Below are positions 38,926-53,060 of a DNA stretch of 53,438 bases, in pieces; the first letter of the stretch is position 1; each line of letters starts with the position of its first letter. Location of the stretch: NCBI GenBank assembly GCA_016182365.1, contig JACOXO010000016.1:1-53438 (forward strand), written 5' to 3'. Under the pieces are notes generated by a model. That model did no database searches. It worked only from the letters and a program-made list of their open reading frames with translations, and was not told the origin of the DNA. The position numbers and the translations under genes were made by a program. The DNA is from Candidatus Gottesmanbacteria bacterium (GTDB lineage: Bacteria > Patescibacteriota > Microgenomatia > JACOXO01).

Positions 38926-40923
38926 ATGAAAAAGATATTTTTAATTGTTTTCTTAATTTTATATCTAATATTAGGATCTTCAAAATATTCTTATTCAGCT
39001 GAAGGACGATGCGGGAATATAGAAATAACTCGGACGGTAAATAATGAAAATATCAATTTTCCCTCTGATGACAATAGAATTTATCCTGGCGATACTGACA
39101 TAAGTCTAATGATACAAATACAAGGCGATGTTAACCCGAACAATTATTACTCATATTATGTCAAGAGGGTAAACGATTCAAATAATGGTGGTTGGATTAA
39201 GGCAGAACAAAATGGGGTAAACATCGGATCTACTTTAGGAGTTAGACGCGACAACAATGGATATATTAATTTAAATGTTAAGCCAGGAAATGTTTATAAC
39301 AAGCGTAATCCTGGAGTTCAACGAGATAATGATATATCTTTAATTCCAAATTTAGAAAATCCTATCAACTGGAATGATGATGATCTGATAATACAGATCA
39401 TTGAAACTCAGGGAGAAATACCTAGATTAGATGCCTCTCCTGAAAATGTAGTGTGTGAAGTCCAACTTAAACCAACAATCAACTGTAATGAATATGAGAA
39501 TTATTATTTTGCTCAGGGCAGTAACGGTTTCGCTATGAGTTTTAGAAATAATAATTTTATTCCTCCTACAAACAACGAGAATAGTTTTTATTTTGAACTA
39601 AAAACCCCTAGTCTGGAGAGGAATGCTGCAGATAAAAGAAACGCCACTACGAATTTTAGCACTCCTGATTTAAAAATATTTGCTTTACGTAACAGCGGAG
39701 AAAATAGTGCTTTTTGGGGTACTGATCCCACATATATAGGTTCTGGGAAACTAATACTGAGTTACTATAATAAAGCTATTTGCCAACAACCTTATCTTAG
39801 TCTCAATAAAGAATATGAACAACAACTCTCACAATGCAAAATTACAGCCGAAGTTGACAACGACTTAAATTATACAGGTAATATAATAATTGAAAACACA
39901 CCAACTAAGATATTAGATAGTCGACAGCTTGATTGGTTAGATACGGGTAAATCAACTGCTCTTCCTAATGGCACTATTATATACGCATCGCCTTACGTTA
40001 TTGCGCTACCGTTAAGTGATTATAACTCATTATTTACTTTGCAAAATCAATCGCAGTCACCAACTCTACATCCCACTAATGTATCTGGAATATATAGCTT
40101 TGACAAAAATATTTTAAGTAATGATCCGTTAGCATGTTTCAATGATAATCAAACAAATTGTTTTAAAATTAACAATAATGTCAAAAGTAATCTAAATAAA
40201 AATCTTACTGCGAACGAGAAATATTTTTTTTCTATTGTCTATGATGTCTCAGGTATAGGGGGTCAAATTGCTTATAAAATTCCATGTCAAACAGTGTTTG
40301 AGTACACACAAGGAGGTAAAATAACTACCTACCCCACGCCTACAGCGTACCCAACGATTGCCTACTCTGCAGACACTCCTACTCCCCTTCCAAGAAATGC
40401 ATTGTGCAATGCAATTAAAGACCCTGATGAAAAGAGTAAATGTACCACATGTATTGGCAATAACGAGGATAATTCAAGCGCACAAGGAGTGTGGACGGGA
40501 ATAGGGTGCATAGAAACCGGCATTAGTCAGTTTATATCCAGATTTTTCTCAATTGGCCTGGGTTTAGCAGGCGGAATTGCCCTTCTATTTTTTATCTATG
40601 GAGGATTTTTGGTATTGACATCTCAAGGAAATGCAGAACAAGTTCAGCAAGGAAGGGAGATTATAACTTCTGCAATAGCCGGACTTTTACTTATTATCTT
40701 TTCTGTCTTTATATTACGTTTAATCTCAATCGATATATTAAAATTACCAGGTTTCGAAACTAATGACGTGTGTTCAGAATCAGGAGGAGAATGTAGCTTA
40801 AGTTGCGATAACAACGATAAATATACAGGCGTGATAATATTAAAAAATTCTTCAGAAGACTCTGACCGGTTGATTCAATGCAAAGTTGATGATCAAGATG
40901 CTTTATGTTGCCAACTTAAGTAG
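38926..40923 (+). CDS. large surface protein with C-terminal pilin-like two-TM module and Cys-rich tail
   Basis: signal peptide, about 490 aa extracytoplasmic region, then 'YGGFLVLTSQGNAEQVQQGREIITSAIAGLLLIIFSVFILRLISIDILKLPGF' and 'CSESGGECSLSC...C...CC'. Confidence 0.75.
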   Translation: MKKIFLIVFLILYLILGSSKYSYSAEGRCGNIEITRTVNNENINFPSDDNRIYPGDTDISLMIQIQGDVNPNNYYSYYVKRVNDSNNGGWIKAEQNGVNIGSTLGVRRDNNGYINLNVKPGNVYNKRNPGVQRDNDISLIPNLENPINWNDDDLIIQIIETQGEIPRLDASPENVVCEVQLKPTINCNEYENYYFAQGSNGFAMSFRNNNFIPPTNNENSFYFELKTPSLERNAADKRNATTNFSTPDLKIFALRNSGENSAFWGTDPTYIGSGKLILSYYNKAICQQPYLSLNKEYEQQLSQCKITAEVDNDLNYTGNIIIENTPTKILDSRQLDWLDTGKSTALPNGTIIYASPYVIALPLSDYNSLFTLQNQSQSPTLHPTNVSGIYSFDKNILSNDPLACFNDNQTNCFKINNNVKSNLNKNLTANEKYFFSIVYDVSGIGGQIAYKIPCQTVFEYTQGGKITTYPTPTAYPTIAYSADTPTPLPRNALCNAIKDPDEKSKCTTCIGNNEDNSSAQGVWTGIGCIETGISQFISRFFSIGLGLAGGIALLFFIYGGFLVLTSQGNAEQVQQGREIITSAIAGLLLIIFSVFILRLISIDILKLPGFETNDVCSESGGECSLSCDNNDKYTGVIILKNSSEDSDRLIQCKVDDQDALCCQLK

Positions 40924-40935
40924 TAGAATAGAAAT

Positions 40936-41292
40936 ATGGAGAAAGTTTTGAGTCAAAATTTAATATTACCAACAGTTGAACACCAACCGGGGATATCACC
41001 TGCGCCAACTATTGTGGTTTCAGGACCGTTAGATGCAGTAAGATTTCCAGATTTAGGTGCAGTAATAACTGAACTTCTTAAATACCTCTACCCTATTGCC
41101 GGGATTATATTATTTGTATATATAATTGCTGCTGGGTTTCAGTGGCTGACAGCTAGTGGTGATCCTAAGAAAATTGAGGCGGCAAGACAAAGACTTACTT
41201 ATGCAATCCTGGGATTTATCCTTCTTATAGCTTCACCCTGGGTAGCAAGAATTGTGGAACTTATTTTCTCCCCTAATGAACCGTTCTTCTAG
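40936..41292 (+). CDS. T4SS-pilin-like membrane protein
   Basis: 'AAGFQWLTASGDPKKIEAARQRLTYAILGFILLIASPWVARIVELIF'. Confidence 0.8.
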   Translation: MEKVLSQNLILPTVEHQPGISPAPTIVVSGPLDAVRFPDLGAVITELLKYLYPIAGIILFVYIIAAGFQWLTASGDPKKIEAARQRLTYAILGFILLIASPWVARIVELIFSPNEPFF

Positions 41293-41341: not shown

Positions 41342-41620
41342 ATGAAAAGTGTGAGTATAAGTGATGCCCGAAACAACCTTGCTGAACTGGTAAACCAGGT
41401 TGCTTATGGCAATCAACAAATAATAATCAAAAAAATGGGTAAACCATTAGCTATTCTTATAAACACAGAAGAATTTACTCATAAAAAAACAGTGCGTAAA
41501 ACTGGAAAACTGCCTTCATTAACCGCAGGAACAATCAAGGCTCCAAAGTCATTTGATATTACAAAAGTATTTGAAGCCATAAAAGAACCTTATGACACAA
41601 AAAGTTTACTTGGACGCTAA
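41342..41620 (+). CDS. Phd/YefM-family antitoxin
   Basis: 'SISDARNNLAELVNQVAYGNQQIIIKKMGKPLAILINTEEF'. Confidence 0.9.
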   Translation: MKSVSISDARNNLAELVNQVAYGNQQIIIKKMGKPLAILINTEEFTHKKTVRKTGKLPSLTAGTIKAPKSFDITKVFEAIKEPYDTKSLLGR

Positions 41621-42044
41621 TATTCTAATTGCTCATCAAATACAAAACCATCCCTTTTACGAAAAATCGCTTGAAGTTATTGACAGTTTTTTTCAGCAGA
41701 AATTTGTTTTTGTAATCGCAAGCTTAACTATGGATGAATTTATGTACGGTACTATTCAAGCATTAAAAATTATTGATAAGAACAAAAAATTTGAATATAT
41801 AATTGATGAATTAAACAAAGCTACCCGAGCCGTATTATCGTGGGAGAATTTGGAATTAATTGATTTTCAGCATACATCATTGGAACTTTTAACAGTTATT
41901 AGTTTAATGAAAAAATATCATTTAAAACCTAGAGATGCTTTTCATCTAAGAATTATGCAGCAACAAAATATCAACAACTTTATTACTTTTGATCATGATT
42001 TTGATATTCTATTAAAATCCGGAAAAATTAATATCATTCACTGA
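41592..42044 (+). CDS. PIN-domain (VapC-like) toxin
   Basis: 'KVYLDANILIAHQ', 'ASLTMDEFMYG', 'LKPRDAFHLRIMQQQNINNFITFDHDFD'; overlaps the antitoxin gene. Confidence 0.88.
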   Translation: MTQKVYLDANILIAHQIQNHPFYEKSLEVIDSFFQQKFVFVIASLTMDEFMYGTIQALKIIDKNKKFEYIIDELNKATRAVLSWENLELIDFQHTSLELLTVISLMKKYHLKPRDAFHLRIMQQQNINNFITFDHDFDILLKSGKINIIH

Positions 42045-42224: not shown

Positions 42225-42917
42225 TTATTTCCCAAAATTCCTTTTTCTCCTCTGATATTCCTCAATTGCTTTATCAAATTCCGAAACTGTAAAATCCGGC
42301 CACAAAGTTGGAGTGAAGTAAAATTCAGTATATTCCATTTGCCAGATCATAAATCCGGAAAGCCTGATATCTCCCCCTGCTCTTATTAATAACTCAGGTT
42401 CCGGCTGCCCCGCGGTATCTAAAAATTGTCCGAAGTTTTGAGTTGTTAAATTTCGAATTTCGAATTTCGAATTTCGAATTTTTTTTATGGCTCTGATGAT
42501 TTCGTCACGCCCACCGTAATTTAAGGCAATATTGACAGTGATTTTCTTATTATTCTTTGTTTTTTCTACCCAATAAAGTGTTTTTTCATAAATATCTTTC
42601 GGAAACTCTCTTAAATTACCAATTATTTTTAACTTCACATTTTTCTGATGAAAACTGTCAACTGTTTTATCTAGGTTGTTGCGGAATAAATTTAGAAGGA
42701 ACTCAACCTCTTTTCTATCTCTCCTCCAGTTCTCAGTTGAAAATGCCCAAAATGTCAAATATGGGATTTTCAACTCAATCGATCTGTCTATTATTGGCTC
42801 AATTCTGTCCTGTCCAAATGTATGGCCTTTGAAAATTGCAAAGCCCTGTTTTTTTGCCCATCTTCGATTCCCGTCCATTATTAAGGCTACATGTTGAGGT
42901 AAATTATTTTTATCCAT
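42225..42917 (-). CDS. uppS: isoprenyl transferase (undecaprenyl diphosphate synthase family)
   Basis: 'HVALIMDGNRRWAKKQGF', 'TFWAFSTENWRR', 'NIALNYGGRDEIIRAI', 'LIRAGGDIRLSGFMIWQ'. Confidence 0.94.
   Translation of the reverse strand: MDKNNLPQHVALIMDGNRRWAKKQGFAIFKGHTFGQDRIEPIIDRSIELKIPYLTFWAFSTENWRRDRKEVEFLLNLFRNNLDKTVDSFHQKNVKLKIIGNLREFPKDIYEKTLYWVEKTKNNKKITVNIALNYGGRDEIIRAIKKIRNSKFEIRNLTTQNFGQFLDTAGQPEPELLIRAGGDIRLSGFMIWQMEYTEFYFTPTLWPDFTVSEFDKAIEEYQRRKRNFGK
42450..42480. repeat. heptanucleotide tandem repeat (ATTTCGA)x4 inside uppS
   Basis: read directly; encodes 'RNSKFEIRN' segment. Confidence 0.9.
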
Positions 42918-42928
42918 AATTAAAATAA

Positions 42929-43351
42929 TTACTTATTTAACAATTCTAAATATTCGCGAGGAGACAATATCTTTATACCTTTATAATCAGCAAATGGAAA
43001 GTGTTTCTTGTTTCCTGTTACAATATATTTAGCTAAACCCTCTATTGCACAGGCCAGTATCATGTTATCATCAGGATCGTCTTTTAATTCAGATACTTCA
43101 AGAATTCCTTCAGTAACAAAAGATTTTAAATTAAGCGTTTTTATAAATTCATTAACTTCAAAAGTTGTTTTACGAAGTAGTTTTAAAACGCCTGGTCTTA
43201 GTAAGACTTCATGCAATTCAATTATTAATTGGGGCGATGCAATCAAAACAAACTGTTGTCTTCTCCAGGCATCAAGAATCTGTCCAGGAGGCGTGTTTTG
43301 AGATTTAATTCCAGAAATAAAAACATTAGTATCAAGAACGACTCTTAACAT
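42929..43351 (-). CDS. PIN-family toxin
   Basis: 'RVVLDTNVFISGI', 'LIIELHEVLLRP', 'DDPDDNMILACAIEGLAKYIVTGNKKHF'. Confidence 0.92.
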   Translation of the reverse strand: MLRVVLDTNVFISGIKSQNTPPGQILDAWRRQQFVLIASPQLIIELHEVLLRPGVLKLLRKTTFEVNEFIKTLNLKSFVTEGILEVSELKDDPDDNMILACAIEGLAKYIVTGNKKHFPFADYKGIKILSPREYLELLNK

Positions 43352-43646
43352 TTTTAGCTTTTCTAACCTCTCTTATTGCTTTCTCAATAATTTTTTCCGC
43401 TTCCTTAACTGACACATTTTTACTTGCTTCCCTTGCTTTGTCAATAAATTCAAATCCTTTTTCCCACTCTTCCTTTGTAAAACGCTTTGCTGGATTCATA
43501 ATTTTTTCATAATCACTGTAAGCTACAAGAGCTGCAACCGGCTTTCCATTCTTGGTAATCACAACTTTTTGATCTCCGTAAGCGACTTGGGATATTAAAT
43601 CAGAAAGTTGCTCACGAATTTCTTTTAATGGTACAACCTGACTCAT
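43332..43646 (-). CDS. Phd/YefM-family antitoxin
   Basis: 'LKEIREQLSDLISQVAYGDQKVVITKNGKPVAALVAYSDYEKI'. Confidence 0.9.
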   Translation of the reverse strand: MSQVVPLKEIREQLSDLISQVAYGDQKVVITKNGKPVAALVAYSDYEKIMNPAKRFTKEEWEKGFEFIDKAREASKNVSVKEAEKIIEKAIREVRKAKNVKSRS

Positions 43647-43710: not shown

Positions 43711-44676
43711 TTAAACTATTAAGTGTGCTCCTTTTGCAGGCTTATTTATAATAATATCCCTAATCACGTCTAGTTCTTTTAATTTTTTAGTTAATTTATT
43801 CAGATTCTTTTTTTCAACCAGTATATGGACATCCTGGCCGGTATTGATTGTGAAATATGCTTCCAGACCGTCAGTCCTTAGTCTTTTTACAAATTTCATA
43901 ACTGTCAAACTCTCGGCTGTCCAATATATAAGTGAGGGGTGTGAAGTTAGCATTACAGCGTGCATTTCCAATGCTTCGGCTTCGCTCAGCACACCCAATC
44001 TAGTAAAATCTTTAATTTTCAAAGCTTGTTTGCATTCCTCTATCTTCTTTTTCATTCCCAAAAGTCTGGTTTGAAAAAATGGACTGGTATCTACTAATTT
44101 CTGCCCTTCGGTACTCCCTACTTCTTTTTTATTTTTACTAACTACAACCACAACATCATATATTTCCCAATATGATGGTGGGTATAAAGATACTGAATAT
44201 GATGTGCTACTTGTATCACCGTCTAACCACTCAACAATTCCATCAGGAATTGACCTGCATGCAGAACCAGAACCCTGTCTTGCCAGAATTGATAACTCCT
44301 TTTCTGACAAAGATAATCCAATACTTTTTGTAGCAGCAAGCGATAATGATGCAAAAACTGAAGCTGATGCTGAAAGACCTGTGGCAACAGGAAAATTGTT
44401 CTCAATTGCAACTTTTGCCCTGGTAGTTTTTTTAGCCAGCTCTCTTACTCTATCTAAATGACCACTAACTCTTAAAAGAACTTGGTTATCCTCTTTACCG
44501 TTAAATAAAACCTTGTCTTTTGTTAATTTGTCATTAAACTCAACAGTTGTTTTTGTTAACAGGTTGCTTAAATTCATACTAATGCTTCCGTTTTGGGGAA
44601 GCCTTAGAATCTCATCTTTCTTACCCCAGTATTTTATAAACGCGATATTAGAAGGTGCTATAGCTGTATACTTCAT
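43711..44676 (-). CDS. mvaD: diphosphomevalonate decarboxylase
   Basis: 'APSNIAFIKYWGKKD', 'ATGLSASASVFASLSLAAT', 'GSGSACRSIPDGIVEW'. Confidence 0.95.
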   Translation of the reverse strand: MKYTAIAPSNIAFIKYWGKKDEILRLPQNGSISMNLSNLLTKTTVEFNDKLTKDKVLFNGKEDNQVLLRVSGHLDRVRELAKKTTRAKVAIENNFPVATGLSASASVFASLSLAATKSIGLSLSEKELSILARQGSGSACRSIPDGIVEWLDGDTSSTSYSVSLYPPSYWEIYDVVVVVSKNKKEVGSTEGQKLVDTSPFFQTRLLGMKKKIEECKQALKIKDFTRLGVLSEAEALEMHAVMLTSHPSLIYWTAESLTVMKFVKRLRTDGLEAYFTINTGQDVHILVEKKNLNKLTKKLKELDVIRDIIINKPAKGAHLIV

Positions 44677-44678
44677 AA

Positions 44679-44760
44679 GATCAAAAGATCATAGGATCAA
44701 CAGATCAAGACATTAATTTTTGTTCTTTTGATCTATTGTTCTATTGATCTCTTTCTGTTC
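44679..44760. repeat. inverted octamer array A (GATCAAAA-type then TTTTGATC-type)
   Basis: gatcaaaa gatcatag gatcaaca gatcaaga ... gttctttt gatctatt gttctatt gatctctt. Confidence 0.85.
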
Positions 44761-45682
44761 TCACTCCTTCAGCATTTGTTTTAACATTAATAATCTCTCC
44801 TCCAGATTCAGTTATGGCTTTTTCAACTGATTTTTTTCTATCCTCATTTACCAAAGCGATCATACAATCTCCTCCTCCTGCTCCTGATAACTTTGCTCCC
44901 CATGCGCCGTTTGAAATTGCACTCTTACACATTTTATCAAGAAGGGGTGTACTTACACCTAACTTTTGTAAAAGATTATGGTTTTTAGTCATCAATAAAC
45001 CCAATTGCTGATAGTCTTTATTTTTTAAACTAATACTGGCTTTATCAACAATTAAAGTCATTTGCTTAAATAGCGAATCCAGCTTGGCTCTTGATTTATT
45101 ATATTCCTGCCTTACTTTATTGATAAGAGTTGGAGTATCTGCTTTTACTCCACTGTAACCTACAACTAAAGGCAACCGGCTACTTTTAATTTTTTCAATT
45201 TTTTTACCGCCTTTTATATAATAAATAATTCCTCCATAAGTTGCTGCGGCAACGTCAAAACCTGAGCCGACTTTTTGAATATTAAGTACTATCTGATAAC
45301 TTAATTTAAAAATCTCTCCCTTAGAAAGATTTATATTAAACAGTTTGCTTAGACCTTCAACTAGGGCAACAGTAACAGCTGATGATGAACCTAAACCTAC
45401 TCTATGGGAAAAATCACCATTAGTTGTTACTTTAACTGAAGAATTAATATTAAATTTTTTCTTAAATAAATTTAAAGTCTCTATTACAAATTTAGTTTCT
45501 TTTACCTGGGGAGCTATAACTTGATCATTATTACCATTTATAAACTCAACTGTCACATACATTCTGGTATCCATGGCTGTAACTATGCAAGGATAGCCAT
45601 AAACAACAGCGTGATCGCCGAATAATAACAATTTACCCGGAGCAGAAACTTTGATCTTTTGATCTTTTGATCTTTTGATCAC
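44741..45682 (-). CDS. GHMP kinase, probable phosphomevalonate kinase
   Basis: 'SAPGKLLLFGDHAVVYGYP', 'VGLGSSSAVTVALVEGL', 'VGSGFDVAAATYGGIIYY'. Confidence 0.75.
   Translation of the reverse strand: MIKRSKDQKIKVSAPGKLLLFGDHAVVYGYPCIVTAMDTRMYVTVEFINGNNDQVIAPQVKETKFVIETLNLFKKKFNINSSVKVTTNGDFSHRVGLGSSSAVTVALVEGLSKLFNINLSKGEIFKLSYQIVLNIQKVGSGFDVAAATYGGIIYYIKGGKKIEKIKSSRLPLVVGYSGVKADTPTLINKVRQEYNKSRAKLDSLFKQMTLIVDKASISLKNKDYQQLGLLMTKNHNLLQKLGVSTPLLDKMCKSAISNGAWGAKLSGAGGGDCMIALVNEDRKKSVEKAITESGGEIINVKTNAEGVRTERDQ
45653..45681. repeat. octamer array B (GATCTTTT)x3+
   Basis: gatcttttgatcttttgatcttttgatca; spans start of one GHMP kinase (MIKRSKDQKIK) and stop of the other. Confidence 0.9.
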
Positions 45683-46677
45683 TTGACTTCTAATCTCACT
45701 CCTTCTTCACCAAGAGCTATTGAATGAACTATATATTTATACTTCTTGGCAATTTTTTGAATTAATTTTTCATCTCTTGTATAACAAAGCATAAGTCCAA
45801 CAGGCCCTTTACTGCCTCCCCCTCCACAGATTTTTACTGCCCAGCCAGCATCTTCTATATCCTTAATAAGCGGCATAACTTTTAAAGATACAGCGCCCAA
45901 TGCCTCAAGCGTTCTTTGTCCGTTTCTGATCGCTTGCAATAAAAGAGGTTCATCGCCTGTTTTTAATGCCATCGTCATGTCTTTTACCGCTCTCTCGTTT
46001 TCATCCAAAAGTCTTGCTGCCTTATCAGGATTTTTCTTAATAAAGTCAGAGACAATTGCTATCATTTCTCCTGTATGTTCAACTGGGCTGCCGGTATCAA
46101 TTAATATAAAGCTGCCAAGTTTTTTTGAAGGCTTAAATGGAAGCTGCCAAACACTTTTTAAGAACTCTAATTCTTTCCTATACCAAATAAAGCCGCCGAA
46201 AGTAACTGTAGTATTATCTCCTCCTGAAGGATTGCCATGTTTTTTCTTTTCCACTTCATAGGCCAATTCATTTATAAGCAGGGGGTTCCATACTTTTTTA
46301 AGATAGTATAAAAGTGCTCCAAGTGTAGCTACAGAAACTGCTGCAGATGAACCAGCGTGTCTGCCAATAGGAATTTGGGAAGAAACACTAATTATTACTT
46401 TTGGTTTTTTTGTCAACTTAAGTTTATTACAAACAATTTTTACTGATTCGTTAATAAGCAAATCACTGTCTGCTTTAATGGAAAAATTTGTCGATGGTTT
46501 AACAGTTGCATACAGCCGCCAGTTAATCGCGCTTATAAGTGCTGGTTTACCATGAACAATAGCATGTTCTCCCATTAGATTAATTTTCCCAGGTACGGAA
46601 ACCGTAACACTACTTGGAGATGAGTTTGAATTTTGCACCATAAGGTATAACGCCTTCCCGATCAGTTTTTTTGACAC
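45679..46677 (-). CDS. mvk: mevalonate kinase
   Basis: 'SVPGKINLMGEHAIVHGKPAL', 'HAGSSAAVSVATL', 'KKKHGNPSGGDNTTVTFGG'. Confidence 0.85.
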   Translation of the reverse strand: MSKKLIGKALYLMVQNSNSSPSSVTVSVPGKINLMGEHAIVHGKPALISAINWRLYATVKPSTNFSIKADSDLLINESVKIVCNKLKLTKKPKVIISVSSQIPIGRHAGSSAAVSVATLGALLYYLKKVWNPLLINELAYEVEKKKHGNPSGGDNTTVTFGGFIWYRKELEFLKSVWQLPFKPSKKLGSFILIDTGSPVEHTGEMIAIVSDFIKKNPDKAARLLDENERAVKDMTMALKTGDEPLLLQAIRNGQRTLEALGAVSLKVMPLIKDIEDAGWAVKICGGGGSKGPVGLMLCYTRDEKLIQKIAKKYKYIVHSIALGEEGVRLEVK

Positions 46678-46918
46678 GCCTTAAAACCACTTCAACAACT
46701 GCCCCAATTTTTACTTTATCAAGATCACAATCAACGATGCTTGCTGTTAATTTAGATTTTCCAAAGCTAGCCAGAGCCACAGGATAAGGAACCTGTCCTT
46801 CAAAACCAGAAGGAGGAACAAAAATTATGGTAAAACTTTCAATCACTCCAATTTTGCCTATAAGAGAAGCTATTTTTTTCTGATTTCTCCAAATTTTAAC
46901 TGGCGAGATGTTATTCAT
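46610..46918 (-). CDS. DUF35-type OB-fold protein of the thiolase/HMG-CoA synthase complex, lacking the Zn ribbon
   Basis: 'GKIGVIESFTIIFVPPSGFEGQVPYPVALASFGKSKLTASIVDCDLDKVKIGAVVEVVLRRV...VIPYGAKF'; no CxxC pairs. Confidence 0.8.
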   Translation of the reverse strand: MNNISPVKIWRNQKKIASLIGKIGVIESFTIIFVPPSGFEGQVPYPVALASFGKSKLTASIVDCDLDKVKIGAVVEVVLRRVKKTDREGVIPYGAKFKLISK

Positions 46919-46921
46919 AAA

Positions 46922-47000
46922 ATCAAGAGATCAAAAGAACAAGAGAACAAAAAATAATAAAAAATTTGATCATATGATCTATTGATCTTTTGCTCTTTTG
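46922..47000. repeat. inverted octamer array C
   Basis: atcaagag atcaaaag aacaagag aacaaaaa ... atttgatc atatgatc tattgatc ttttgctc. Confidence 0.8.
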
Positions 47001-48142
47001 AAAATGTTAACAACGGCAACAGCTCCGCTACCACCTACATTATGAGTAAGTCCAATTCTTACATCTTCAACCTGTCGTTTATCAGCTTTACCCCGCAGCT
47101 GTTCTACTACTTCAACAATTTGTTTAACCCCTGTTGCTCCAACAGGGTGACCACAAGCTTTAAGTCCTCCTGAAGTATTAACAACAAGTTCTTTAGACCT
47201 ACCCAATGTTAATTTCTCTTCAAAAATAGCTTTGCCTGATTTTCCCTTTTGATAAAATCCTAAATCTTCGAGGGCCATAATTTCAGCAATCGTAAAACAA
47301 TCATGCACTTCAGCGATATCAATATCAGCAGGTTTAACATTTGCTTGTTTATATGCCTTAATAGCTGCCAATCTGGCGCTTTTTAAGGAAGTAATGTCGT
47401 CTCTTTTTGAAAGTCCTAAAGAATCTGTGGCTACCCCGCTTCCAATTACCCACACTGGTTTATTTTTCCCACCAACATTTTTTTCATTTACTAATACAGC
47501 GGCTGATGCTCCATCAGATATTGGAGAGCAATCAAGAAGAGTTAAAGGATCGGAAATCATGGTGCTTTGAAGAGCTTTCTCAATTGTTATTGCTCTTTGA
47601 AATTGAGCCTTTGGATTAAGACTTCCATGATAGTGATTTTTAACAGCAACTGAGGCTAAATACTCTTTTGGAATTTTATACTTATTTATATAAGCTCTGG
47701 CCATAATTGCATATAATCCTGGGAAAGTAATTCCTGAAACTCTTTCTTCTTCACTGCCTGCTCCCATAAGTCCTGAGGCCACTTCATCTGGCTTATGATC
47801 AGTCATTTTCTCAACCCCAATTACCAAAACTCGATCATATGCTCCTGATTTAATTCCTAAATAGGCATTGTGAAATGCCAAACCTCCTGAGGCACATGCT
47901 CCTTCAACTTTAAAGGCCGCACAATTTGCTCCCAATTCCTCTGCAAAAAATGATCCCAGATTTTCTTGATTACCAAGAATTCCAGAAAGCATGTTACCAA
48001 CATAAATAGCATCGATATCAGCAATTGATAACTGCGAAGCTTTAAGAACTTCATTTGCTGTTTGACTAACCAACGTTCTCGGAGAAACATCCCATAACTC
48101 TCCAAATTTTGAGGATGATACTCCTAATACCGCAGTTTTCAT
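46979..48142 (-). CDS. archaeal-type acetyl-CoA acetyltransferase (thiolase)
   Basis: 'KVEGACASGGLAFHNAYLGIKSG', 'AEVHDCFTIAEIMALEDLGF', 'NTSGGLKACGHPVGATGVKQI'. Confidence 0.93.
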   Translation of the reverse strand: MKTAVLGVSSSKFGELWDVSPRTLVSQTANEVLKASQLSIADIDAIYVGNMLSGILGNQENLGSFFAEELGANCAAFKVEGACASGGLAFHNAYLGIKSGAYDRVLVIGVEKMTDHKPDEVASGLMGAGSEEERVSGITFPGLYAIMARAYINKYKIPKEYLASVAVKNHYHGSLNPKAQFQRAITIEKALQSTMISDPLTLLDCSPISDGASAAVLVNEKNVGGKNKPVWVIGSGVATDSLGLSKRDDITSLKSARLAAIKAYKQANVKPADIDIAEVHDCFTIAEIMALEDLGFYQKGKSGKAIFEEKLTLGRSKELVVNTSGGLKACGHPVGATGVKQIVEVVEQLRGKADKRQVEDVRIGLTHNVGGSGAVAVVNIFKRAKDQ

Positions 48143-49173
48143 ATTGCACCTCTTGCTTTCAAATAACCAATATAAGAAACGTATTTTTTATCCTCAATCA
48201 TATCTTCAACAGTTTTGCCAAAATTAATTTTTGCAATAGCTTTTGTAGTTTTTAATATTATGCTATCTGCTCCTGCTCCTGAACCATAGGAAGCCAAAAA
48301 AATGTATTGATTTGGTTTGGATTTCTCCAAAACAGTTGCCAGCCCTATTAAAGATGATGCTGAATAGGGATTGCCAATCTTTTTAACCACCATTGACTGT
48401 TCTAATTGCTCCCTGGTAAAACCTAATCTTAAAGCTGCTTCTTTAGGAAAGTTGCCATTGGGCATATGAAAAACACAACTGGCAAAATCAGAAGGTTTCA
48501 TATTGGTTTTTTCTAAAAGTTGTTTTGAGGCAGATAAAACATGGGTAAAATATGCAGGTTCTCCTGTGAATCTTCCAGCATGCGAAGGATATGCAATACC
48601 ATCCCGTCTCCAAAAATCAGGGGTGTCTGATGAATATGACGTATAATCTAAAATTTCTGCAATAACTTCGCTACTGCCAGATCCAACAATATAACAACCT
48701 GCACCTGCTCCAGCTGTGTATTCTAAAATGTCATGAGGTTTTGCCTGAGCACAATCTGCTCCAATTGCCATTCCGTAAGCAACTTTTTTTTGGGAAACAA
48801 GAGACAGAGCGTATAATAATCCTGTTGTTCCAGCTTTACAAGCAAACTCCAGATCTGAAGCCATATAAGAATTCCCGGCTCCCAGAAATTCACCAACAGT
48901 TGTTGAAGTAGGTTTTACTGCGTAGGGATGTGATTCGCTTCCTAAAATTAAACATCCCAGACTAGTTGGTTTTAAATTTACTCTTCGTAATGCTTGCCTT
49001 GCAGCTTCAATTGCCACTGTTGTTGTGTCTTCATCTAATCCCGCAACAGCTTTTTCATAAACTCCAAGAGAACTAGAAATCGTGCTACCATCTTTACCCC
49101 AAACTGAAGCGATTTCGTTTATGGTCAACCTGTTTCTTGGTATGTATGTTCCAAAACTCACAATCCCAGTCAT
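48139..49173 (-). CDS. archaeal-type hydroxymethylglutaryl-CoA synthase
   Basis: 'GIVSFGTYIPRNRLTINEIASVWG', 'LGSESHPYAVKPTSTTVGEFLGAG', 'DLEFACKAGTTGLLYA'. Confidence 0.93.
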   Translation of the reverse strand: MTGIVSFGTYIPRNRLTINEIASVWGKDGSTISSSLGVYEKAVAGLDEDTTTVAIEAARQALRRVNLKPTSLGCLILGSESHPYAVKPTSTTVGEFLGAGNSYMASDLEFACKAGTTGLLYALSLVSQKKVAYGMAIGADCAQAKPHDILEYTAGAGAGCYIVGSGSSEVIAEILDYTSYSSDTPDFWRRDGIAYPSHAGRFTGEPAYFTHVLSASKQLLEKTNMKPSDFASCVFHMPNGNFPKEAALRLGFTREQLEQSMVVKKIGNPYSASSLIGLATVLEKSKPNQYIFLASYGSGAGADSIILKTTKAIAKINFGKTVEDMIEDKKYVSYIGYLKARGAI

Positions 49174-50324
49174 ATTTTCTCACCTCTTCCTAATTTTCTA
49201 TGAGCGGCAGCTAATGAACCCTGGGAAAAACTAGCTAAAAGTGATAGCTCACCAGCCAGTACACTACCTGCTACGATTTCAGCAAATTTCATGGCATTAT
49301 TACCATCATTTCCTCCATAAACACCTAATAATTCCAAGGCTTCTTTTTGTGTACCTAGAGCTGTACCTCCTCCCACTGTTCCCAACATAAGATCAGGGAG
49401 ATACACGCTTATATACAAATCTCCCTCTTTAGTTACTTCAGTCGTGGTTATACCCATAGATCCTTCGACTACATGAGCAATATCCTGACCCGTTGCAGCA
49501 AATATCCCTGCAACAACATTGGCAAAGTGAGCGTTGAATCCCATAGATCCGGCAAGAGCTGACCCTATCATGCATTTTCCTAACCAGACTTTATAAATAT
49601 CATCAGAGGTTGTTTTTAAAACAGCTTTTACTGTATTTTTATCAACTGCTGCCTCAGCCCAGGCTTTAATTCCTCTTTTTGCAATCATATTTAACCATGC
49701 TGGCTTTTTATCAATATCAAAGTTTCCGGCAACCGACAAACATTTAAATCCGGTTTCTTCCTCAATAACAGAAACTATATTTTGGGTAGCAATTGTAACC
49801 ATATTCATCCCCATAGCATCTTGGGTATCAAAATAAAACCTGATAAAAACATAAGAAGCGGTTCCGGTAACTTCTGATTTTTTGTATTTTATGTGCTGGG
49901 AAGTAGACTCGGCCGCTTTTTTAATTACTGACTGATTATTTTTAATCCAATCATATAATTTTTTCTGATTATCTAGTGTACCCACATAAAATACAGGACC
50001 ACGGGTAGTACCAACTCTGTAAGCGTATGTATTTACTTCTGATATTGCCTTACACCCTCTATTTACCGAAGCCACAAGAGCGCCTTCTGTCGTAGCCAAA
50101 GGTATATAATATTCCTTAACGCTTGACGCTCGACGCTTAACCCTAAGCGGTCCAGCAATACCCATAGGAACCTGAGCAATTCCTATCATATTCTCACAAT
50201 TCTTGCTTGAAGCCATTTTTTCATCCAATGTGAAACTGCCAATGTTTTTCAAGTGAACATTTGTTAATTTCTCAATATAATCTCTTCTGTCTTTAACTGT
50301 TTTAAAATCTCTTAAACTTTTCAT
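49170..50324 (-). CDS. hydroxymethylglutaryl-CoA reductase
   Basis: 'ENMIGIAQVPMGIAGPL', 'PLATTEGALVASVNRGCKAI', 'DAMGMNMVT', 'GTVGGGTALGTQKEAL', 'AAHRKLGRG'. Confidence 0.96.
   Translation of the reverse strand: MKSLRDFKTVKDRRDYIEKLTNVHLKNIGSFTLDEKMASSKNCENMIGIAQVPMGIAGPLRVKRRASSVKEYYIPLATTEGALVASVNRGCKAISEVNTYAYRVGTTRGPVFYVGTLDNQKKLYDWIKNNQSVIKKAAESTSQHIKYKKSEVTGTASYVFIRFYFDTQDAMGMNMVTIATQNIVSVIEEETGFKCLSVAGNFDIDKKPAWLNMIAKRGIKAWAEAAVDKNTVKAVLKTTSDDIYKVWLGKCMIGSALAGSMGFNAHFANVVAGIFAATGQDIAHVVEGSMGITTTEVTKEGDLYISVYLPDLMLGTVGGGTALGTQKEALELLGVYGGNDGNNAMKFAEIVAGSVLAGELSLLASFSQGSLAAAHRKLGRGEKI
50115..50141. repeat. heptanucleotide tandem repeat GTYRAGC (x4, minus strand) inside the HMGR gene
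   Basis: minus strand GTTAAGC GTCGAGC GTCAAGC GTTAAG; encodes 'VKRRASSVK'. Confidence 0.8.
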
Positions 50325-50929
50325 ATAAATGGAATTCTAAATAAACCTAATTTATACGTAAAAAGAGAGTATAAAATGGCTAAGGGAACAATAATTATTG
50401 TCGAAAGGATAATCTTTCCCAGACTTAACTTGTGGCCAAAGCGTAATGTTAAATAGTAAAGCATACCTTTCCAATAAAAACATGTTATTGATATTCCGAT
50501 AAAAACTAAACTAAAAAGCTGGCCTTTTAGGGAATCAGTTCTTGGAGGTGGAAGAAGAAAATAAAAGAATGAAGCTGTTAAAAACCATAAAAGTGTAGGA
50601 ATAAGTGAATATAACCAGGGATAGAAAATATTCGAAGGACTTGCCTTTCCCCCAAACAGTTTTCCCACAAAATAAATAATACCCCAGGAGAAAATAAATG
50701 TAAAAATTATACCTGAGAACAATTTGCCAAAATGCAAAGTAAGAAGAAGTGATCCGCTATCCAACCCTTTTCTCAAAAGTGAGGCCAAACCAATATAAAT
50801 TACAGCAAGTATATTTATATATATAATCTCCAAAGGATTTACGCCTTTTGATAAAGAGCGCATGGTCTCATAAGGCCTGATAATAATACCCAGCAAATGC
50901 CTCAAAAATAAAGTAAAGGATGTGTACAT
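50321..50929 (-). CDS. Yip1-like domain membrane protein
   Basis: 202 aa polytopic; 'GIIIRPYETMRSLSKGVNPLEI'. Confidence 0.6.
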   Translation of the reverse strand: MYTSFTLFLRHLLGIIIRPYETMRSLSKGVNPLEIIYINILAVIYIGLASLLRKGLDSGSLLLTLHFGKLFSGIIFTFIFSWGIIYFVGKLFGGKASPSNIFYPWLYSLIPTLLWFLTASFFYFLLPPPRTDSLKGQLFSLVFIGISITCFYWKGMLYYLTLRFGHKLSLGKIILSTIIIVPLAILYSLFTYKLGLFRIPFI

Positions 50930-50932
50930 AAG

Positions 50933-51166
50933 CTAAAAGCCGTACTGAAGAAGACTGACAATTCTTACAATTAGAGTACCCAAAATGACCCAAGCAAATA
51001 GTGTTGATAAAAATCCACCCAGCATTAAAAATCTAATTGGTGATTCTTTGATATGGGGAACTATTTTTCTCCAAAAAGGAGTGAGAAGTCCAATGTCCTG
51101 AGGGGGTACGCTTGATACAGCATACATCCTTTCTTTTAACTGCTGATACAATTTATCTTCTTTCAT
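50933..51166 (-). CDS. small single-TM protein, candidate anti-sigma partner
   Basis: 77 aa, one C-terminal TM, ATGA overlap with the sigma gene. Confidence 0.5.
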   Translation of the reverse strand: MKEDKLYQQLKERMYAVSSVPPQDIGLLTPFWRKIVPHIKESPIRFLMLGGFLSTLFAWVILGTLIVRIVSLLQYGF

Positions 51167-51720
51167 ATGGTTGCCCAGATTTTTACAAAAGCTTTCCTTG
51201 CCCGGAATAACATAGACTCGGCGCTTTTAAATGAGAGCTTCAATTCTTTAGTTATTTCAATTATGCTTTTATCATCAACATACTTAAGAGTAATAATCCT
51301 TCTATAAGATACGGGTAAAAGCGAAAATACTCTATCGATATCAATCTTTTTTTGTTTATTTGCCAAAATCTCCTCTGGTCCTAAAAGAGTTATAAGCAAT
51401 GATTCTAACCTTGGAGACTGGGAAAAAAATATTTTCTTGATCTTTTTTTTCCTGTAATAATCAATTACTTTATTTTTGGCAATCGAGAATAAAAAAGTAC
51501 TTAGCTTTGATTTATAAGAAAAATCTCTTAAAGCATCTATTGAAGAAAGAAGGCTGTCCTGCAAAATTTCTTCTGCATCCTCAATAGTTGCCGTCCTGTT
51601 TTTAATGAAAGTAAAAAGCCGGGGTGTATATAAATGATAAAAAATCCGCAGAAATTTTTCATCTCCCTGCAAAATACCCAAAATCAGCTCTTTTTCGTCT
51701 TTTAACGAAAATGCTTTCAT
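51163..51720 (-). CDS. ECF-type RNA polymerase sigma factor
   Basis: 'RNRTATIEDAEEILQDSLLSSIDAL', 'FSIAKNKVIDYYRKKK', 'LPVSYRRIITLKYVDDKSIIEITKELKLSFKSAESMLFRARKAF'. Confidence 0.9.
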   Translation of the reverse strand: MKAFSLKDEKELILGILQGDEKFLRIFYHLYTPRLFTFIKNRTATIEDAEEILQDSLLSSIDALRDFSYKSKLSTFLFSIAKNKVIDYYRKKKIKKIFFSQSPRLESLLITLLGPEEILANKQKKIDIDRVFSLLPVSYRRIITLKYVDDKSIIEITKELKLSFKSAESMLFRARKAFVKIWATI

Positions 51721-51771: not shown

Positions 51772-52353
51772 ATGGACAATCCATATTACAAACAGGAGCT
51801 ATTTGTAGCCCAAGTTGATAAAAAAGATAATGTTATTGGAGAAGTTGAGCGCTGGAAAGCTCATAAAGATGGAGCCTTACATAGAGGATTTACAGCAATT
51901 CTTACTTATAATGGACAATATCTTCTTCAACACCGCAAGCACCCAGCTTTTGACAAATATTGGGACTTTACATTTTCATCTCATCAGATATATGAAAATG
52001 GACAACTTGAGAGTGATTTAGATGCAATATATAAGGCCTTATTTAGAGAATGGAACTTAAATAAAACAGATATATTTGAAAAACCTAAAAAAATAGGCCA
52101 AGTTTATTACTTGGCAAAAGATCCCCACAGTATTTATACAGAACATGAAATTGACTATATATATTTGGCCAAAATCAAAAAACTCCCCCATCCTAATTTA
52201 GACTATTCCTATAAATATGAACTTATTGATTCGGTTGATAAGATAAAAAAACTGCCCGCTTCGCCAAAGCTTCAGCGAGGCGAGCCTTCATCCTATATCC
52301 TCGCCCCATGGGTAAAACAAATTATCACTGATACACCGTTTGACAATAAATGA
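51772..52353 (+). CDS. isopentenyl-diphosphate isomerase type 1-like NUDIX protein
   Basis: 'FVAQVDKKDNVIGEVERWKAHKDGALHRGFTAILTYNGQYLLQHRKHPAFDKYWDFTFSSHQ...EHEIDYIYLA...LAPWVKQI'. Confidence 0.8.
   Translation: MDNPYYKQELFVAQVDKKDNVIGEVERWKAHKDGALHRGFTAILTYNGQYLLQHRKHPAFDKYWDFTFSSHQIYENGQLESDLDAIYKALFREWNLNKTDIFEKPKKIGQVYYLAKDPHSIYTEHEIDYIYLAKIKKLPHPNLDYSYKYELIDSVDKIKKLPASPKLQRGEPSSYILAPWVKQIITDTPFDNK
52258..52288. repeat. GC-rich palindromic element in frame within the idi-like gene
   Basis: cgcttcgccaaagcttcagcgaggcgagcc; encodes 'ASPKLQRGEP'. Confidence 0.65.
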
Positions 52354-52375
52354 GGGGGGATCTAGACTAGTTTTA

Positions 52376-52702
52376 ATGGAGATAATAAAACAAGTTCACG
52401 CAGAAGTTGACATCATCACGCCCTTTAAACCAGCCCAAACTTTTCCAACGATTGGCTCTCTTATAAACGTACTTGCCAAAAACGCCATGGTATTCGCCGG
52501 CATAATATTTTTTATCATGTTTATCTATGCTGGTTTTAAATATATTCAGGCTGCAGGAAAAGGTGATCCAGCTGAAATACAAAAAGCAAACAGCCTGGTA
52601 GGCGCATCCATGGTTGGACTATTGCTGGTTGTAGGTGCATACTTTATTGTATATATAATTGAAACCGTAACTGGAATTAAAATATTAAATCCGGGTTTTT
52701 AA
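52376..52702 (+). CDS. T4SS-pilin-like membrane protein
   Basis: 'YAGFKYIQAAGKGDPAEIQKANSLVGASMVGLLLVVGAYFIVYIIETVTGIKILNPGF'; probable start at internal ATG of ORF 52340..52702. Confidence 0.75.
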   Translation: MEIIKQVHAEVDIITPFKPAQTFPTIGSLINVLAKNAMVFAGIIFFIMFIYAGFKYIQAAGKGDPAEIQKANSLVGASMVGLLLVVGAYFIVYIIETVTGIKILNPGF

Positions 52703-52703
52703 T

Positions 52704-53060
52704 ATGTTTTCAATAATACTTCCTCAACTTTTTGGCACAATCGAACCGCCAATTGGCGGATACTCTGCTGATATATCAGGACTAACTCAACTTGCCACCA
52801 ATCTTATAAGGCTTGCGATATTAGGAGCAGGCATCTGGGCATTTTTCAATTTTCTTGTTGCCGGATTTAGCTTCTTAACCGCTTCCGGCGATCCTAAAAA
52901 AGTTGCAGCTGCCTGGGAAAGAATATATTTGAGTGTAGTCGGACTTGTAGTTATCATTGCTTCGTTTATTCTGGCTGCTGTAGTTGGCTTTGTGGTTTTC
53001 GGTGATCCGTTATTTATACTACGACCACAGATATATAAACCTGTTGTACCAACACCATGA
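52704..53060 (+). CDS. T4SS-pilin-like membrane protein
   Basis: 'AGFSFLTASGDPKKVAAAWERIYLSVVGLVVIIASFILAAVVG'. Confidence 0.8.
   Translation: MFSIILPQLFGTIEPPIGGYSADISGLTQLATNLIRLAILGAGIWAFFNFLVAGFSFLTASGDPKKVAAAWERIYLSVVGLVVIIASFILAAVVGFVVFGDPLFILRPQIYKPVVPTP

Follow-up and report, generated by a model that had tools for sequence, protein, structure and literature searches.

A seven-gene mevalonate operon in a Gottesmanbacteria contig

The window analysed here is contig JACOXO010000016.1 of Candidatus Gottesmanbacteria bacterium, a whole contig (C23) of 53,438 bases from a genome of 1.04 Mb in 42 contigs that is judged 92% complete. Scanning of its open reading frames (ORFs) with Pfam and NCBIfam profiles identified a mevalonate operon at 50324-43711, consisting of seven unbroken ORFs in one orientation on the minus strand. 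In the direction 50324 to 43711, these correspond to 3-hydroxy-3-methylglutaryl-CoA (HMG-CoA) reductase (HMGR), an archaeal-type HMG-CoA synthase (HMGCS), an SCP2-type thiolase, a DUF35 protein, a mevalonate kinase, a phosphomevalonate kinase (PMK) candidate and a decarboxylase homologue (MvaD). The original prediction had named seven codirectional genes from mvaD to HMGR in a host resembling the candidate phyla radiation (CPR); all seven ORFs were recovered with matching families, and the size of the genome and its nearest named relatives, Levybacteria, Gottesmanbacteria and their kin, agree with such a host. Genome-level searches were made with one profile or query at a time.

49170-50324, minus strand: HMGR, class I; PF00368 389 bits, TIGR00533 411 bits; best PDB match 6HR7, 358 bits
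48139-49173, minus strand: archaeal-type HMGCS; TIGR00748 401 bits; best PDB match 6ESQ chain I, 357 bits
46979-48142, minus strand: SCP2-type acetoacetyl-CoA thiolase; NF004720 473 bits (over cut-off); best PDB match 6ESQ chain A, 294 bits
46610-46918, minus strand: DUF35 scaffold protein, 102 aa, zinc ribbon deleted; PF01796 45 bits (over cut-off); sole PDB match 6ESQ chain E
45679-46677, minus strand: mevalonate kinase (MKA), motif HGNPSGGDN; TIGR00549 150 bits, under the cut-off of 163
44741-45682, minus strand: putative phosphomevalonate kinase (MKB), motifs GSGFDVAA and SGAGGGDC; assigned from motifs, tree and mutual exclusion with isopentenyl phosphate kinase (IPK)
43711-44676, minus strand: diphosphomevalonate decarboxylase homologue (MvaD) with Asn278; TIGR01240 269 bits (cut-off 171); best PDB match 6N0Z, 289 bits

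The true start of MKA may be the ATG at 46641, within the overlap with DUF35. The same seven-gene order was found in 22 named Microgenomates-group contigs, indicating that the arrangement is not due to chance. From a sigma-factor gene upstream of HMGR through the thiolase, each junction is a 4-nt overlap save one 3-nt gap; larger gaps precede DUF35 (60 nt) and MvaD (64 nt). Because of this tight spacing, and of the same layout in many relatives, the transcription unit probably starts at the sigma-factor gene (51720).

An archaeal-type module with a DUF35 protein lacking its zinc ribbon

HMGR belongs to class I, scoring 411 bits with TIGR00533 against 49 bits with TIGR00532, and HMGCS scores 401 bits with the archaeal-type profile TIGR00748 (cut-off 353) against 112 bits with the bacterial profile TIGR01835. 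For HMGCS, thiolase and DUF35, the best PDB sequence matches all come from a single archaeal complex, 6ESQ, and correspond to its three subunits, supporting the earlier suggestion that HMGCS and thiolase are of archaeal type with a DUF35 gene adjoining. The residues that we take, as established family knowledge, to be catalytic are present in HMGR (Glu80, Lys206, Asp281 and His375), HMGCS (Glu80, Cys112 and His236) and thiolase (Cys83 and His280, with a further His near 331). Missing catalytic residues had been named beforehand as grounds for doubt; the set is complete in these three enzymes and incomplete in MvaD, where the conserved catalytic Asp is absent. Within the archaeal assembly, DUF35 joins thiolase and HMGCS at a shared CoA site, and acetoacetyl-CoA is not released (PMC12329534).

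The window DUF35 protein has 102 residues, compared with 130 in 6ESQ. Its residues 19-100 match 6ESQ residues 48-128, and its helix VKIWRNQKKIASLIG aligns with VRSWRHMKERYNLIG of 6ESQ residues 3-17 in a sub-threshold alignment piece. These aligned segments indicate that the intervening zinc ribbon has been deleted, joining the N-terminal helix directly to the OB fold. Consistent with the loss of a four-Cys zinc ribbon, no CxxC occurs anywhere in the protein. The same holds for 61 of 63 DUF35 loci of the class (median length 100), the exceptions (L162 and L248) both coming from a family with divergent HMGCS; archaeal and other loci have a median length of 134, with at least two CxxC in 41 of 42. 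An AlphaFold2 model (predicted local distance difference test score, 87) retains the helix and five strands, and a fold search with this model returned the 6ESQ DUF35 chains as best matches (TM 0.71, E 1.6e-7). In a related aldolase the main interface is formed by the N-terminal helix and OB fold (PMC12329534); by analogy, this interface would be retained in the window protein, and we infer that the complex forms without the zinc ribbon. The loss of the ribbon had been overlooked in the original prediction.

Distribution and origin of the operon

Archaeal-type HMGCS scored over the cut-off in 97 of 374 genomes of the class and in 29 of 380 genomes sampled across the phylum, and the named relatives include Levy-, Gottesman-, Davies-, Roizman- and Curtissbacteria. 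Two unrooted trees (101 and 105 rows), one for HMGCS and one for thiolase, with archaeal sampling mainly from the 80 best named matches, contain one branch that parts archaea and a few non-CPR bacterial labels from the other CPR sequences (support 99 for thiolase and 95 for HMGCS). One contig labelled Falkowbacteria (L050) falls on the archaeal side, inside Diapherotrites in the HMGCS tree, and is probably mis-binned. On an archaeal contig (L086), HMGCS, thiolase, DUF35, mevalonate kinase, MvaD and PMK occur together; given this combination, the mixed composition of the operon is not special to CPR.

The operon had been proposed to be a chimera or an early transfer, with an archaeal upstream half and a bacterial or eukaryotic downstream half. 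A chimera of this kind would be compatible with the function favoured below, and draws on the best solved matches, which are archaeal for HMGCS, thiolase, DUF35 and HMGR and from Chloroflexota for MvaD. We regard it as unlikely, since the CPR HMGCS and thiolase are not nested in any archaeal group sampled in the unrooted trees, the operon is conserved across the class, and the archaeal contig joins the same module to a mevalonate kinase, a PMK and MvaD. Because the CPR copies share one side of the supported branch, neither a recent nor a discrete early transfer, nor a half-and-half chimera, is borne out, and, the trees being unrooted, no direction of transfer can be given. The data are compatible with a single ancient acquisition or with common ancestry, in either case with inheritance thereafter in the class. 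Chimeric pathways have been described in Asgard archaea, with Asgard sequences intertwined with bacterial ones, CPR included (PMC11052028).

Two kinases and the exchange of a putative PMK for IPK

The MKA motif HGNPSGGDN resembles mevalonate kinases, and the MKB motifs GSGFDVAA and SGAGGGDC resemble the Listeria and pneumococcal PMKs, matching the PMK patterns GS..D[VI]A and SG.GGGDC. In a kinase tree built by a quick method and containing some long branches, MKB grouped with both of these reference PMKs and with a PMK-like archaeal protein (support 96), away from the mevalonate kinases used as references, and MKA formed a separate group (support 99). Fold comparison of MKB did not tell mevalonate kinase and PMK apart, and its score with the PMK profile TIGR01220 was 121 bits, under the cut-off of 166. 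Motifs and tree agree with the original assignment of a PMK-like kinase beside a mevalonate kinase, on which automatic annotation would err.

Of the 74 genomes of the class that carry this HMGCS, 59 contain MKB only, 10 IPK only, five neither and none both (Fisher, 4e-9, without kinship correction). The window genome contains MKB (458 bits), and an IPK profile search of this 92% complete assembly gave a best score of 32 bits against a cut-off of 120, which points to the classical route. In five sister operons (L068, L167, L243, L249 and L250), IPK lies in the place of MKB next to MvaD, and one genus (g77) is mixed, with MKB in genome G082 and IPK in G092 and G227. From this exclusivity, the motifs and the tree, we infer that MKB acts as a phosphomevalonate kinase. 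Contig C8 holds a fourth GHMP kinase, which was considered as PMK and rejected: it is fused to a sugar nucleotidyltransferase and precedes a phosphosugar isomerase-like gene (judged by eye).

Mevalonate operons with neither PMK nor IPK were observed in family f106 of another Patescibacteria class (L147-L151 and L229-L240). At their end lies a DUF35 protein that lacks the CxxC ribbon and is fused to a guanylate-kinase-like domain of divergent sequence, whose guanine-binding part is seemingly lost (by eye), and a separate, more canonical guanylate kinase is present in 12 of 12 genomes. Judging from sequence, this domain could be a non-orthologous kinase of either phosphomevalonate or isopentenyl phosphate. 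The MvaD of this family has Asn at position 21, like some IPK-type enzymes.

A decarboxylase homologue with asparagine at the catalytic aspartate site

The closest solved relative of MvaD, 6N0Z, is the entry for the Anaerolinea thermophila phosphomevalonate decarboxylase, an enzyme that reportedly accepts both substrates (Thomas and colleagues, 2019). The structure of the phosphomevalonate decarboxylase from this Chloroflexota bacterium has been described (PMC9254496). Residue 278 of the window MvaD is Asn (FTINTGQDVH); the Anaerolinea protein carries Asp at this site (YTLDAGPNVH). This conserved catalytic Asp corresponds to Asp282 in E. faecalis and Asp283 in S. epidermidis, and the Asp283Ala mutant is inactive (PMC7414129).

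Of 41 PMK-type operons from CPR, 28 have Asn at the site; the 10 IPK-type and five fusion-type genomes all lack it there. Roughly three changes are needed on the MvaD tree, where a single set of 28 rows (support 96) holds almost every Asn type. As they fall almost entirely in a single clade, the association of Asn with PMK reflects one main event rather than many; one member of the clade (L075) has Asp at the site. Most Asn-type proteins carry the motif NTGQD, in which Asp and Asn are seemingly exchanged four residues apart, and about seven have Asn at both sites. Each of 20 genomes tested, including the window genome, contains a single MvaD homologue, which is therefore the sole decarboxylase candidate, and the long conservation of the Asn type argues against decay. 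The window protein retains Lys21, typical of diphosphate-specific enzymes (table in PMC3857490), together with Arg27, as in many phosphate-specific enzymes; in six of nine readable IPK-type proteins, the basic residue 21 is replaced by Gln, Asn or Met. MvaD with Asn278 presumably still decarboxylates.

Proposed pathway and alternative routes

Gene content and order, protein families, residues and motifs suggest that the operon probably encodes a complete classical mevalonate pathway from acetyl-CoA to isopentenyl diphosphate (IPP), supplied by a pared-down archaeal-type thiolase/DUF35/HMGCS complex. In this proposal, thiolase and HMGCS would be held by the minimal DUF35 in a predicted complex like 6ESQ, with acetoacetyl-CoA handed on directly. 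HMGR would then form mevalonate, MKA mevalonate 5-phosphate, MKB mevalonate 5-diphosphate, and MvaD IPP. A Nudix isomerase candidate may convert IPP to dimethylallyl diphosphate, and the one polyprenyl synthase of the genome, together with undecaprenyl diphosphate synthase (UppS), would lead to the carrier lipid. No PF02401 match to IspH of the methylerythritol phosphate pathway was found in the assembled, 92% complete genome. The isomerase candidate and UppS lie outside the operon:

51772-52353, plus strand: type I IPP-isomerase-like Nudix protein, divergent to the operon; TIGR02150 43 bits, under the cut-off of 106
42225-42917, minus strand: UppS, a likely consumer of the pathway; PF01255 255 bits; near the operon in many relatives

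Several observations weigh against this reconstruction. Every DUF35 protein structurally characterised as of 2019 was found to bind zinc, and thiolase in the archaeal complex is touched by the cleft lying between the ribbon and the OB fold (PMC6996347). MKB scores 216 bits with NCBIfam TIGR00549, over its cut-off of 163, and is thus labelled a mevalonate kinase; by profile and fold, it is nearest to an archaeal mevalonate kinase. All characterised relatives of MvaD have the catalytic Asp at the site of Asn278, and the Sulfolobus mutants Asp281Thr and Asp281Val become kinases that form the 3-phosphate and no IPP (PMC7414129, PMC9254496). The isomerase candidate does not reach its profile cut-off and has no catalytic Cys; alignment with human IDI1 and IDI2 places a Ser at this position, as in IDI2. 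Among CPR Nudix homologues, Cys, Ser, Thr or Ala was observed there.

The Sulfolobus mutants (PMC7414129) and the frequency of Asn in PMK-type operons raise the alternative that MvaD with Asn278 is a kinase only, 3-phosphorylating mevalonate 5-diphosphate, with decarboxylation occurring elsewhere or slowly and non-enzymatically. This is improbable, given the one homologue per genome with no partner decarboxylase found, operons that are otherwise complete, and the Asp in L075 of the Asn clade. Less probable still is an alternative route, in which MvaD would convert mevalonate 5-phosphate to isopentenyl phosphate for completion by IPK, and MKB would be a second mevalonate kinase. It accords with the NCBIfam score of MKB, with the same Lys/Arg pair at the equivalents of residues 21 and 27 in 6N0Z, and with the pairing of MvaD and IPK in ten class genomes; against it stand the sub-threshold IPK search of the window genome, the PMK-type motifs and kinship of MKB, and the basic residue 21 of its MvaD, mostly replaced in IPK-type proteins. 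Contamination or a mis-binned archaeal contig, suggested by bacterial-labelled contigs that sit among archaea (L050 and L096), is already contradicted by the 53 kb contig around the operon, the separate group formed by the class copies and the layout common to 22 named contigs. Beyond the classical pathway proposed for the window, a large CPR clade could, more tentatively, make IPP through an Asp-less decarboxylase fed by a thiolase/HMGCS complex with a ribbon-less DUF35 scaffold.

Other genes near the operon

Three ORFs precede HMGR in the probable transcription unit:

51163-51720, minus strand: extracytoplasmic function (ECF)-type sigma factor, probably the unit's first gene; PF04542 45 bits, PF08281 34 bits; 4-nt overlap with the next ORF
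50933-51166, minus strand: ORF of 77 aa that seems to contain a membrane segment; position kept in related loci; no Pfam match
50321-50929, minus strand: Yip1-domain membrane protein; PF04893 33 bits; 4-nt overlap with HMGR

Judging from its position, the 77-aa ORF may be anti-sigma-like. The set (50321-51720) lies upstream of HMGR in many related loci, and dedicated regulation is possible. Close to the operon are two pairs of a Phd/YefM antitoxin and a PIN toxin (41342-42044 and 42929-43646). Type IV secretion system pilin-like proteins (PF18895) were identified at 38926-41292 and 52704-53060, one within a 665-aa protein. Several ORFs similar to that at 52340-52702 occur next to sister operons.

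Comparison with known systems

Many biosynthetic routes are missing in CPR bacteria, whose isoprenoid supply is disputed. Earlier reports include a 'near-complete' mevalonate pathway in Peribacteria (PMC4736985), a mevalonate pathway in a KEGG summary for Microgenomates (OP11) (PMC5383146), and a 2022 freshwater survey crediting C5 isoprenoid synthesis to Gracilibacteria only (PMC9166423). DUF35, kinase identity, the IPK exchange and the MvaD Asp are not treated in the available portions of the first two. CPR mevalonate genes were thus already known; as far as the literature shows in these portions, the class-wide ribbon-less DUF35, the exchange of PMK and IPK and the Asn-type MvaD are new. 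From the operon, a full pathway is predicted for some members of the Microgenomates class, and the naming of PMK as mevalonate kinase by automatic annotation may account for some 'near-complete' pathways. The ribbon-less DUF35 offers a ready test of whether acetoacetyl-CoA channelling needs the zinc ribbon, the natural Asp-to-Asn decarboxylases provide material for testing a debated catalytic step, and the PMK/IPK exchange among sister genomes makes a switch between classical and alternative pathways directly testable.

Three known systems compare with the operon. The Methanothermococcus thermolithotrophicus thiolase/DUF35/HMGCS complex (6ESQ, 6ET9) provides the best solved match for all three subunits and shares, as known here from sequence, the adjacent genes, the helix and OB fold of DUF35 and the catalytic residues of HMGCS and thiolase; the window differs in the deleted zinc ribbon and in the addition of HMGR upstream and of the kinases and MvaD downstream. 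The classical pathway of eukaryotes and bacteria shares homologues of mevalonate kinase, PMK and MvaD with the window genome, in which no IPK was found, whereas the window PMK is short, mevalonate kinase-like and under the TIGR01220 cut-off, its MvaD carries Asn at the catalytic Asp site, its HMGR is of class I and its HMGCS is archaeal-type. The alternative pathway of haloarchaea and Chloroflexota, which uses phosphomevalonate decarboxylase and IPK, is echoed in the resemblance of the window MvaD to the Anaerolinea enzyme and in some sister CPR operons in which IPK replaces MKB, but the window genome itself has MKB, with no IPK found.

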